DNA of 64,000 nt from Gelria sp. Kuro-4 (GTDB lineage: Bacteria > Bacillota > DTU030 > DUMP01): contig NZ_AP024619.1 of assembly GCF_019668485.1 (NCBI RefSeq), forward strand, positions 1,611,001-1,675,000, given 5' to 3'. The notes under the pieces are model-generated. The model searched no databases. It was given only the letters and a program-made list of their open reading frames with translations, and was not told the DNA's origin. Positions 48,220 through 52,310 of the stretch are shown piece by piece. Position 1 is the first letter of the stretch. Each line of letters opens with the position of its first letter. The position numbers and the translations under genes were made by a program.

Positions 48220-49868
48220 TAGCTAGAGTCCCCTGAAAAACCATAGTGCCGAAATGGAAAAGGAATCCTCAATCCGGTTGGCGAAGATGTTCGGGAGCAA
48301 GCCAAAAACACTTCCCCGCCGGTGAGGATTCCTCGATAACCGTATTCGCTGGCCGGCAGGGAAATCCTGCTGGAGGGATCAAACATGTTGGTACTCCGTC
48401 GAGAACAACTAAGCCTGTGGGATGCGATACTCCCGGAAGAGGTTCGTACTTTCAACGCGGAATTAACCGATGTCAATCGGTGGCTCGACGACGAGCGATT
48501 CATGGAGCCATTTGTTAAGAAGTTCTCTACCCACATCGGTCGGCCTACGGTTCCGGTAGATACGTACCTCCGGCTGATGTTCCTCAAGTTCCGGTATCAA
48601 CTGGGATACGAGACCTTAGTGGCGGAAGTTCAAGACAGCATTACCTGGCGACTGTTCTGCCGCCTTCCGCTTGATATGGCCGTACCTCACTCTACGACGC
48701 TCATCAAGCTGACCAAGAAGTACGGAGAGAAAACCTTGGAAGAACTCAATACCCTTCTTGTCCCAAAAGCAAGAAGGGAACGCATCATCAAGACCAAGAA
48801 GCTGCGGATTGACACCACCGTAGTAGAAGCGGACATCAAACACCCTACGGATGCAGGGCTGCTGGCCGACGGCGTGCGCGTTATCAGCTGGACGGTAAAG
48901 AAAATAAAGGCTGCTGTAGAGAAAGCGGGAGAAAACCTTGCCTCTTTCCGGGATCGGACACGAACGGTTAAGCCGGCGCTCCTGGCCATTGGCAAGGTCC
49001 TTAAGCGGCGCAGTGGTGAAGCCGTCAAGGAAGTGCGCAAGATCACCGGTAAGCTTATCACTGTGGCCAAGAAAACGGTAACCGAAGCGAAGACAGTTCT
49101 TGAGCTGTGCAAAGAGAAATCGGATGGTAGAGTGGCGCGCTTGACCATCACCTTGGAGAAGTTTGTTTCGGCCACTGAGCAGGTTATTGCTCAAACTGAG
49201 GAAGTGCAATCAGGTAACCGCCGCATTCCGGAAAAGCTTGTCAGCTTGTTTGACCCTGAGGCCCGCCCGATCAAAAAAGGCAAGCTCAAGTCCCCCACTG
49301 AGTTTGGCCGTAAGGTTATCCTTGAAGAAAGCGAAGAGAGGATCATAGTAGGCTTCCCAGTGCTGAAAGGCAATCCGTCCGATAACACCCTGCTTGAAGA
49401 CTCCATCGACCGTTACCGAAAGGTTTTCCACCGGCCACCGCTTGCAGTATCCACAGACCGCGGCTTTTACAGTAAAGACAATGAGGAAATGCTTCGTGGC
49501 AAGTACGTCCCGCAGTTCGCTATCCCCAAGCCAGGGAAACGCTCAGCGGAAAGAAAGCAGCTCGAGTCTTCGTCCCGATTTAAGCGCCTGCAGAAATGGC
49601 GTGCCGGTGGCGAAGGCACGATAGGCCTACCGAAAAGAAAGTATGGTTTGCGGCGTAGCCTGTTTAGGGGTACCCTTGGCAATAACTGCTGGGTGGCCTT
49701 GTCTATCCTCACCTATAACTTTACGAGAATAGCGACGCTGAGCCTCGAGGCGGGGAGCTAACCAAGGACAGGGATTAGAGGCAAAGGTCGACAAGAAACC
49801 AGGACGCAAAAGCTCAGGATGATAAGGGTTGATACTACTGTGAAGACTTTTTCAGGGGACTCTAGCTA
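48220..49868 (+). mobile_element. ISNCY-like insertion sequence with perfect 21-bp terminal inverted repeats
   Basis: The 21-bp ends (48220-48240 starting tagctagagtcccctg, and 49848-49868 its exact complement) bound a 1649-bp element carrying one transposase gene. It sits inside the IS21 leader: removing it brings ggggaaggggtcaaggccgt next to aacaggaggg, which reconstitutes the leader of copy A. Its intact ends and gene suggest a recent insertion. Confidence 0.85.
48385..49761 (+). CDS. Transposase of the ISNCY-like element
   Basis: DDE-type transposase of 458 residues, uninterrupted. N-terminal helices ('LGYETLVAEVQDSITWRLFC'), then 'KLRIDTTVVEADIKHPTDAG' with a catalytic Asp, a long charged helical insert (about 180-290), 'AVSTDRGFYSKDNEEML' with the second Asp, and a basic C-terminus. 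The arrangement resembles IS5-superfamily/ISNCY transposases. Start at ATG 48385 follows ggaggga. Exact family assignment is from memory of sequence style. Confidence 0.8.
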   Translation: MLVLRREQLSLWDAILPEEVRTFNAELTDVNRWLDDERFMEPFVKKFSTHIGRPTVPVDTYLRLMFLKFRYQLGYETLVAEVQDSITWRLFCRLPLDMAVPHSTTLIKLTKKYGEKTLEELNTLLVPKARRERIIKTKKLRIDTTVVEADIKHPTDAGLLADGVRVISWTVKKIKAAVEKAGENLASFRDRTRTVKPALLAIGKVLKRRSGEAVKEVRKITGKLITVAKKTVTEAKTVLELCKEKSDGRVARLTITLEKFVSATEQVIAQTEEVQSGNRRIPEKLVSLFDPEARPIKKGKLKSPTEFGRKVILEESEERIIVGFPVLKGNPSDNTLLEDSIDRYRKVFHRPPLAVSTDRGFYSKDNEEMLRGKYVPQFAIPKPGKRSAERKQLESSSRFKRLQKWRAGGEGTIGLPKRKYGLRRSLFRGTLGNNCWVALSILTYNFTRIATLSLEAGS

Positions 49869-50490
49869 ACAGGAGGGTATCCATGCGCAAGATCAAAGAG
49901 ATTCTTCGCCTGCGTTACGAACTAGAGATCGGGGTGCGGCAGATCGCCCGCAGCCTCTCCGTGGCCCACAGGCACCGTGAGCGACCTCCTTGAACGGGCC
50001 GAGGTGGCAGGCCTCACCTGGCCGCTTCCGGCCGACCTCAGCGAAGCCGACCAGGAAAAAAGGTCTATCCCGGCAATACTGACAAAGCGCGTCCGCGCTC
50101 TATGCCGGACCTGGAGTGGGTCCAGGCGTGACCCTGTAGCTTCTTTGACTGGAGTACAAGTAGAACCAGCCGGACGGGTATCAATACAGCCAGTTCTGTC
50201 AGCTTTAACGTAAATGGTGTCGCAAGCTCAACGTCGTCATGCGCTAGAGCCACCAGGCAGGCGAGAAGCTGTTCGTCGATTACACTGGCCAGACCGTCCC
50301 CGTGGTTGGCCCGGCGACGGGCGAAGTGCGGCCCGCCCAGATCTTCGTGGCGGTACTTGGCGCCAGCAGTTACGCTTACGCCGAAGCCGCTTGGAGCCAA
50401 GACCTGAGCTTCTGGATTGCTACGCACCCGCAGGCTTTTGCCTTCTTTCACAGGGTAACCGAGGTGATCGTGCTCCAGCAGAATAGGACT
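49869..50490 (+). pseudogene. IS21 istA relic (copy B, second part)
   Basis: AGGAGGG then ATG 49883 opens 'MRKIKEILRLRYELEIGVRQ' and 'IARSL', and a frameshift follows after about 27 codons. 'LLERAEVAGLTWPLPADLSE' is in a second frame. Later '[13 protein letters not shown]' and '[20 protein letters not shown]' in a third frame is the DDE domain start (Asp of 'FVDYTG'). It ends abruptly near 50490, before the remaining catalytic region. istB is not present here. Confidence 0.85.
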
Positions 50491-50497
50491 TAGAAAG

Positions 50498-50514
50498 ACC
50501 GGGTTTTACCCGGC
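50498..50514. repeat. Left 17-bp direct repeat flanking the IS1182 element
   Basis: accgggttttacccggc, identical to 52078-52094. It contains a ccgggt-ttt-acccgg hairpin. See the element entry. Confidence 0.85.
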
Positions 50515-50550
50515 GAGGCTGTTGACAAAGAAGGTCAGCAGCCTCTTTTT
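50515..50550 (+). terminator. Terminator-like hairpin at the IS1182 left end
   Basis: 12-bp stem with one mismatch (gaggctgttgac / gtcagcagcctc), loop aaagaag, then TTTTTG. It would shield the transposase gene from read-through transcription. Confidence 0.7.
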
Positions 50551-50602
50551 GTTGAATACTATATTAATGTAGTCAATAGAAAAAGGAGTGAAAGCAAGAT
50601 AG

Positions 50603-52174
50603 ATGTTTAGAACTCGTAAAACCCAACAACTGAGCTATGAATTCGTTAACATAGAAGACCTGGTTCCCAAGGACCATCTACTTCGAAAGATCACCAAGTA
50701 CATAGATTTTGGGTTTATCACAGAGAAGACCAAGAACTTATATTGTGAGGATAACGGTCGGCCGTGTATTGATCCGGTGATTCTCTTTAAGATGTTGTTC
50801 ATTGGTTACATTTATGGGATACGTTCAGAGCGTCGTTTGGTTGAAGAGATCAAAGTTAACGTGGCCTATCGCTGGTTCCTAGGGCTTTCTCTTTCAGATC
50901 TAGTACCCCATCACTCCACCATAAGCCAGAATCGACGTCGGCGGTTCAATGGAACAGATGTATTCCAGCAGATATTTGACGAGATAGTATTTCAGGCAAT
51001 GTCCAAAGGGCTGATCGACGGGAAAGAATTGTTTTCCGACTCTACGTTCCTAAAAGCAAACGCCAGCAAAAGCAAATTCACCATTGAAAAAGTAGCCAAG
51101 TCAACAAAGGACTACGTAGAGGAACTGGACAAAGCAGTAGAGGATGACCGTTTAGAACATGGGAAGAAGCCGTTAAAGGATAAGGGAAAAGAACCTCCCG
51201 AAACAAGGCAAACCCGAATCAGTACAACTGACCCCGAAAGCGGGCATATGGTACGGGAAGGTAAGCCACGGGGATTCTTTTACCTGGAACATAGAACTGT
51301 AGACGGGAAGTTGAACCTAATCACAGACTCTTATGTAACCGCTGGGAATGTCCATGATTCTGTTCCCTATCTCAGTCGACTTGACAGGCAAATCCATCGC
51401 TTTGGTTTTAAAGTCGAGGCTGTGGCGCTTGATGCAGGCTATCTCACTAATCCTATTGCCCATGGTCTAAGGCAAAAAGGAATTTATGCTGTCATCGCTC
51501 ATAGGAGGTTCCGTCCTAAGAAAGGGGTCTTTCACAAGTGGCAGTACAAATATGATCCTGAACAGGATCACTACACCTGTCCTGCTGGTAGCGTCCTCAC
51601 CTATCGCACAACCAATCGTGAAGGGTACCGGGAGTATAAATCTGACCCCGAAGTATGTAAAAAGTGCCCAATGCTAAGCCGTTGTACACATTCCAAAAAC
51701 CATACTAAAGTTTTAACCAGACATGTTTGGGAAGACGATAAGGAATGGATAAGGGAAAATCGTCTTAGCGTGCGCGGGAAAGAACTATACCGGCGAAGGA
51801 AGCTAACCATTAAAAGAAGCTTCGCAGATTCTAAAGAACTGCATGGTCTAAGATATTGCCGTATGCGGGGGCGCAGCAAAGTCACAGAGCAGTGCCTCCT
51901 TACGGCCGCTTGCCAGAACATGAAAAAGATGGCCCTCTTCTTGTGGAAACAGGGACAAGGACCATCTCCTAGTTCTCGCCTACATCAACTTTTACAGCAT
52001 CTCTTCTCCTTCATAAGCCCGATATTAAGATTAAACCCCTGCACCGCTTCACGTTGCAGGGGTTTGTCAGCAATCTCACCGGGTTTTACCCGGCTTTTTG
52101 TTTGCGGTGCGCCCGGCATTGGCACTGTCTTTAGGGTGAAAGTCCTGAACGGTGAAGGTAGCAGTAGCCGTTAG
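50603..52174 (+). CDS. IS1182-family transposase, frame runs past the element end
   Basis: DDE transposase of 523 codons. 'PVILFKMLFIGYIYGIRSER' and 'VAYRWFLGLSLSDLVPHHST' form the N-domain. 'LFSDSTFLKANASKSK' and 'VALDAGYLTNP' hold the two Asp, and 'LTIKRSFADSKELHGLRYCR' holds the Glu region. The frame has no stop inside the element. The last ~32 codons, from about 52078 on, lie in the repeat and the intron relic, so the natural C-terminus or stop has been lost, probably by a frameshift or the insertion itself. Otherwise the catalytic core is intact. Confidence 0.82.
   Translation: MFRTRKTQQLSYEFVNIEDLVPKDHLLRKITKYIDFGFITEKTKNLYCEDNGRPCIDPVILFKMLFIGYIYGIRSERRLVEEIKVNVAYRWFLGLSLSDLVPHHSTISQNRRRRFNGTDVFQQIFDEIVFQAMSKGLIDGKELFSDSTFLKANASKSKFTIEKVAKSTKDYVEELDKAVEDDRLEHGKKPLKDKGKEPPETRQTRISTTDPESGHMVREGKPRGFFYLEHRTVDGKLNLITDSYVTAGNVHDSVPYLSRLDRQIHRFGFKVEAVALDAGYLTNPIAHGLRQKGIYAVIAHRRFRPKKGVFHKWQYKYDPEQDHYTCPAGSVLTYRTTNREGYREYKSDPEVCKKCPMLSRCTHSKNHTKVLTRHVWEDDKEWIRENRLSVRGKELYRRRKLTIKRSFADSKELHGLRYCRMRGRSKVTEQCLLTAACQNMKKMALFLWKQGQGPSPSSRLHQLLQHLFSFISPILRLNPCTASRCRGLSAISPGFTRLFVCGAPGIGTVFRVKVLNGEGSSSR
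52038..52066 (+). terminator. Perfect hairpin near the IS1182 right end
   Basis: aaacccctgca / tgcaggggttt around a loop of about 11 bases, directly before the right inverted repeat. Positions are approximate to one or two bases. Confidence 0.5.
52078..52100 (+). terminator. Rho-independent terminator, right copy of the duplicated hairpin
   Basis: accgggttttacccggc followed by TTTTTG (52095-52100). This looks like the original target terminator, and its stem is duplicated at 50498-50514 without the T tract. Confidence 0.75.
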
Positions 52175-52310
52175 CTCAAGGCAAGGGTGTCTGCGGCGAC
52201 GCAGAATTCGAAGGAAGCCGGTGGCAAACCTCCGGCCCGAAGACCAGGAATTCCAGGTGAAGCTGCTAACAGTCCGCTGCTAGTGTACACGACAGGTACT
52301 GTTTGATTCT
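52107..52310 (+). mobile_element. Group II intron 5' relic (bacterial class C-like)
   Basis: Starts at GTGCGCCC, the expected 5' splice site. It continues with family-typical blocks: gggtgaaagtcctgaac, gtagccgttagctcaaggc, gacgcagaattcgaaggaagcc and ggcaaacctccggcccgaag. These are parts of domain I. The reverse transcriptase gene, domains V-VI and 3' end are absent. It begins 7 bases after the terminator T tract, the site class C introns prefer. The 3' limit is approximate. Confidence 0.75.

Follow-up and report, generated by a model that had tools for sequence, protein, structure and literature searches.

The window, a 64,000-nucleotide stretch of DNA from Gelria sp. Kuro-4, contains an IS1182-family insertion sequence (IS) that is bounded on both sides by the same complete hairpin. 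The locus raises the question of whether this hairpin belongs to the element or to its target and, if to the target, what sets the length of the DNA that is duplicated on insertion. From the comparison of this copy with its relatives, it is probable that a subgroup of the IS1182 family targets DNA that can form a hairpin, usually an intrinsic terminator, and duplicates the whole hairpin, with the structure of the target, rather than a fixed transposase stagger, setting the length of the repeat.

The element and its surroundings

Two identical, unstranded copies of the 17-mer ACCGGGTTTTACCCGGC are present in the 64-kb window, at 50498-50514 (repeat search and palindrome scoring) and 52078-52094 (repeat search), with no third match in the window at up to two mismatches and none in 100 shuffles. 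It is a palindrome centred on the repeat: a 6-bp stem encloses a loop of 3 nt, and a single base is left unpaired on either side. Between the copies lies the IS, delimited by sequence comparison and the family model to 1563 bp (50515-52077, forward strand), and an alignment of its ends gives the terminal inverted repeats GAGGCTGTTGACAAA on the left (50515-50529, forward strand) and GAGATTGCTGACAAA on the right (52063-52077, reverse strand), which match by eye at 12 of 15 positions, or at 12 of 16 when 16 positions are compared. The right hairpin is followed by TTTTTG, the original T tract still lying 3′ of it, and the left hairpin runs directly into the IS. The preliminary description had reported both features, namely inverted ends matching at 12 of 15 positions and directly bounded by the same 17 bp, and a T tract on the right copy only, and the repeat search of the window and the sequences that follow the two copies bear it out. 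The left IS end (50515-50550, forward strand) itself folds at -21.8 kcal/mol as an inward-facing terminator, GAGGCTGTTGAC-loop-GTCAGCAGCCTC-TTTTT, in which a 12-bp stem precedes the TTTTT, and folding of the right end yields a hairpin (52033-52065, reverse strand) that is terminator-like for transcription coming in from the right.

In the manner of the IS1182 family, short terminal inverted repeats enclose one DDE transposase frame, and the targets of the window element and its relatives are palindromic. Against the NCBIfam IS1182 model NF033551 (cut-off 270), the window transposase reaches 473.5 bits, and it contains the Pfam domains DUF772 and DDE_Tnp_1_6. Comparison with relatives indicates that its frame (50603-52174, forward strand) no longer stops at codon 483 (52049-52051) but runs on beyond the IS into the right hairpin and flank, and that residue 404, E in every relative in which the motif was found, is K in the window copy only. 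From the position of the motif, E404 is presumably the catalytic glutamate of the presumptive triad. The window copy differs at four positions from the other two copies in the genome, which agree there and have E404 and the stop codon intact. Because of E404K and the lost stop, the window copy is probably no longer active.

Other mobile DNA lies close by. To the left of the IS, a broken remnant at 49977-50493 looks like an IS21-type integrase gene, with a weak Pfam rve match below the cut-off, and a second DDE transposase frame, at 48385-49761, includes a DUF772 domain and shares about 22% identity with the IS1182 transposase over part of its length. To the right, a group II intron is represented by its 5′ part (52107-52300, the start being approximate), which begins immediately beyond the T tract of the terminator that the IS interrupts and includes a match to Rfam group-II-D1D4-3 at 52190-52270 (36.9 bits); seven such intron starts in the genome were examined, the one in the window among them, and all come after a hairpin.

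The hairpin as target

The Gelria sp. Kuro-4 genome (2.88 Mb, one contig) holds two further copies of the IS, at 2352637 and 1600473, which are 99.74% identical over the full 1563 bp. Their direct repeats, AGCCCGGGAACGAGCCCGGGCT and AGGGAGGAGGTATCTCCTCCCT, are 22 bp each and each a complete hairpin. Three near-identical copies thus lie in three different hairpins of 17, 22, and 22 bp, which identifies the hairpin as target and not element. Nor is there the one duplication length per element of a conventional DDE element, either among these three copies or in four other genomes with a similar spread. The preliminary description had proposed that the whole stem-loop was duplicated on insertion, and had given the same 17 bp at other copies as the observation that would speak against this; AGCCCGGGAACGAGCCCGGGCT and AGGGAGGAGGTATCTCCTCCCT were found instead, and the proposal gains support both from the differing hairpins and from empty sites in relatives. 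It is scarcely credible that the hairpin belongs to the element, or that the flanks were made by recombination: the hairpin does abut both IS ends exactly, but each copy has a different one, and the single-hairpin sites of relatives are uninterrupted, which already refutes this reading for those relatives. A hairpin that is part of the element is accordingly rejected on both counts.

For the empty sites, 27 single-hairpin sites were rebuilt by script, the window's own was joined by hand, and nine sites were searched. Uninterrupted single-hairpin sites were found for five of the nine insertions tried (L069, L067, L012, L027, and L033). The 460-bp site of a Klebsiella plasmid (L069) is uninterrupted at 100% in all 12 records listed, with 814 records matching, 725 of them at 80% coverage or more, and the site of a Bacillus subtilis plasmid (L067) is uninterrupted at 99.6-100% in five of seven matching records, the other two carrying the IS. 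Among congeneric genomes, counted by rows, the L012 site aligns end to end in 16 of 44 (best 99%), the L027 site aligns end to end in two, and the L033 site is present without size change in seven. No empty site was found for L073, and none among 13 genomes of the class for the window's copy, L002, or L003, so that the check for single-hairpin empty sites proposed in the preliminary description succeeded for relatives (five of nine insertions) but not for the three copies of the window genome.

Two of these terminators have been occupied repeatedly. The L033 terminator is occupied in G824 by a full-length IS whose repeat is 20 bp long, and in G833 by an internally deleted copy whose repeat measures about 20-22 bp; the L027 terminator is occupied in G821, G826, and G833 by inserts of about 175 bp with repeats of 22-23 bp. 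Since the repeats at both terminators carry each species' own hairpin sequence, this reuse would most simply reflect independent insertions. L230, L232, and L239 are short, non-autonomous inserts of about 175 bp whose ends resemble those of IS1182; they lie in the same terminator in three related species, and each is flanked by a hairpin repeat of its own.

Repeat length and symmetry among relatives

Relatives were gathered by genome searches, one contig scan, and plasmid records. A scan of 156 distinct loci for inverted ends and direct repeats gave 54 with a repeat score of at least 11; after removal of L100, L196, and L197 as spurious and of L052 for an imperfect repeat, 50 insertions remained. 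This count includes L001, L148, and L152 after manual re-anchoring, and L182 and L024 were retained despite imperfection. The 50 insertions comprise 35 distinct element ends and are not all phylogenetically independent, and the repeat search applies no selection for palindromes.

Direct repeats in these 50 insertions are 16-35 bp long, with nearly every value from 16 to 30 occupied and helical spacing absent, and the two members of the pair are identical in 47. The palindrome dyad falls at the exact midpoint of the repeat in 46 of 50, four being off-centre. Random windows of the same length from the same loci scored as high in 137 of 15,000 cases, and 101 of these 137 come from L182 alone, which is itself no better than 101 of its 300 controls. 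Copies of one element type differ within G147 (20, 21, and 23 bp), G048 (35, 20, and 23), G341 (20, 25, 22, and 20), and G209 (22, 34, and 27), so a single element can have repeats of different lengths. In sum, the repeats are whole hairpins of target DNA, their lengths vary even between near-identical copies, and for relatives there are single-hairpin empty sites.

A quick tree, with long branches and warnings, was used solely for the well-supported hairpin-repeat clade, which comprises 48 rows at support 99: 34 have hairpin repeats, nine either have different hairpins or end at a contig edge, and five are unscored. Different hairpins at the two ends were seen by eye at L016, L018, L040, L047-L049, L053, L071, L074, and L097. 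Three of these are copies in Dechloromonas denitrificans that show a cyclic exchange, the left hairpin of L047 equalling the right of L049, the right of L048 equalling the left of L049, and the right of L047 differing from the left of L048 by one mismatch; recombination between copies, or misassembly, would explain this pattern. Further exceptions are L017, which is without a left hairpin, and L072, which is without a left hairpin and whose right end was not found; several loci stop at a contig edge. In a Salmonella plasmid copy (L070), the two flanks are mutually reverse complementary beyond the hairpins.

Applied to distant IS1182 relatives, the same repeat search found hairpin repeats in one genome only, G239 (L145, L182, and L183), on a distant branch, with two of the three in the tree. 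A looser short-repeat scan of 60 loci, nearly all from distant relatives, found no repeat longer than 9 bp, its counts being only indicative since it missed both 4-bp cases; GGCC-type 4-bp repeats seen in other IS1182 relatives are likewise only indicative. The distant relatives L141 and L193 have 9-bp repeats, GGACGGTTC and GGACCGTCC, perhaps a common repeated target motif. The G385 element is the neighbour of the hairpin-repeat clade in the quick tree. Its target is a 24-bp palindrome at the empty site in the congener G346, and the IS lies at the centre of this palindrome with a 4-bp repeat (L031), which indicates that the pipeline does not force whole-hairpin repeats. L025 has a CCAG repeat by eye, and L037 fits neither mode. 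A split of the palindrome arms with inverted-repeat replacement was considered for the G385 element and is ruled out by the continuous palindrome in G346 and the central 4-bp repeat at L031. Whole-hairpin duplication is real and general in its IS1182 subgroup.

Terminator context, cut position, and element ends

Terminator-like tracts, defined as at least five T of eight positions to the right or at least five A of eight to the left, adjoin 44 of the 50 sites, against 1082 of 9880 control positions (11%). Six sites have neither tract, and among these only L024 is not exactly dyad-centred; a T tract is hence not required. The preliminary description had proposed checking whether the targets of other copies are also terminator stems; most are, in that 44 sites have an adjoining A- or T-rich tract, and six are without one.

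The first base of the repeat is A in 42 of 50 insertions and G in eight, and it is A in 16 of the 20 sites whose left flank is not A-rich. All 54 cuts in or beside A-runs of at least 4 leave zero to three A's inside the repeat (one in 25, two in 18, none in nine, and three in two); uniform choice along the A-run would place about 34 of 54 in this range. At 34 of the 50 sites the palindrome arms could pair beyond the cut, which therefore does not mark the outermost junction available. It tracks the G/C stem, with a preference for a 5′ A.

The base preference at the cut and the A- or T-rich flanks of 44 sites would suit a transposase dimer that reads two-fold symmetric double-stranded DNA, or the A/T tracts around a G/C block, with flexible spacing and without extrusion. 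We regard this as unlikely, given that a spacing of 16-35 bp without helical phase suits no rigid double-stranded complex and that six sites are without A/T tracts, five of them exactly dyad-centred. Another candidate target is a hairpin on single-stranded DNA, such as the lagging-strand template or the transcription bubble at a terminator, in place of a double cruciform. Terminators are transcribed hairpins, and IS200/IS605 elements are known to target single strands. Sites with a T tract only on the right (14) and those with an A tract only on the left (12) are, however, nearly balanced, which indicates no orientation bias relative to the terminator, and DDE enzymes join two ends to two strands; a single-stranded target is on these grounds distinctly unlikely.

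Inward-facing hairpins with a T-rich tract are present at 23 left and 28 right ends among the 35 distinct element ends, and in two of 350 internal windows of these same elements. We infer that the left-end terminator may make up for the termination that is lost once the left hairpin and its T tract are separated.

A proposed structure-guided mechanism

Insertion guided by the structure of the target is the best reading of these observations, an unproved one. A hairpin or cruciform would be extruded and bound at its base by the transposase, which would join the two IS ends to the hairpin's 5′ foot on each strand, at 0-3 nt from the outside of the G/C stem. However long the stem, the two target phosphates would lie close together at this junction, so that gap filling would copy the whole hairpin. 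Upstream transcription, which the T-less left copy no longer stops, would then end at the inward-facing terminators of the element. Counting against this reading are the scope for pairing beyond the cut in 34 of 50 sites, the base preference at the cut, the four off-centre repeats and the poor score of L182, the missing left hairpins of L017 and L072, and the failure to find an empty site for L073 or for the three copies of the window genome. In a broader form, to which we give even chances, a DDE transposase would have its duplication length set by target secondary structure, a four-way junction at the feet of the extruded hairpin would replace the fixed stagger, and subgroups would have switched between feet (whole hairpin), tip (4 bp), and deletion.

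Target-duplication length is normally taken as a fixed property of the transposase; here it ranges over 16-35 bp and follows the target hairpin, and these natural elements make structure-guided integration directly testable. They also illustrate a way for a mobile element to establish itself in terminators, where its own inward-facing terminators could replace the interrupted function. For annotation, the element boundary in this IS1182 subgroup belongs inside the hairpin repeats.

Comparison with known systems

Class C group II introns lie after terminators. They share the terminator association of the present elements, and a fragment lies 3′ of the window element's own terminator, but they are RNA-based retroelements and sit after the hairpin.

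ISfinder reportedly lists variable repeats for the IS1182 family. The variable direct repeats and palindromic targets that the preliminary description names for the family agree with PMC5678879 and PMC4923244, both of which cite a review. According to the same papers, IS1272 and TnSha1 of the IS1182 family use palindromic targets, hairpins of unrelated sequence that are often terminators, and IS1272 deletes or replaces the stem-loop without forming a target duplication (PMC4923244, PMC5678879). The present subgroup resembles them in family and in hairpin targets that are often terminators, and differs from them in that the whole stem-loop, instead of being deleted or replaced, is duplicated, in the window element as in relatives such as L069 and L067. 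In the open-access literature searched, whole-hairpin duplication appears only in a model legend of PMC5678879, and a prior description is possible in subscription papers and ISfinder, which lie outside that search.

In that legend (Fig 13), pathway b of the IS1272 model draws duplication of the whole stem-loop as a possibility, and a large set of natural insertions here has such an outcome. Palindromic targets have already been published, as has the deletion of hairpins by IS1272, and whole-hairpin duplication is a documented variant of this known kind. Other IS1182 subgroups likewise have palindromic targets but short repeats, of 4 bp in ISPse1 (PMC3281130), in the G385 element, and in the GGCC type. 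Within the IS1182 family, then, both the feet and the tip of the palindrome are used, and IS1272 deletes it (PMC4923244, PMC5678879).
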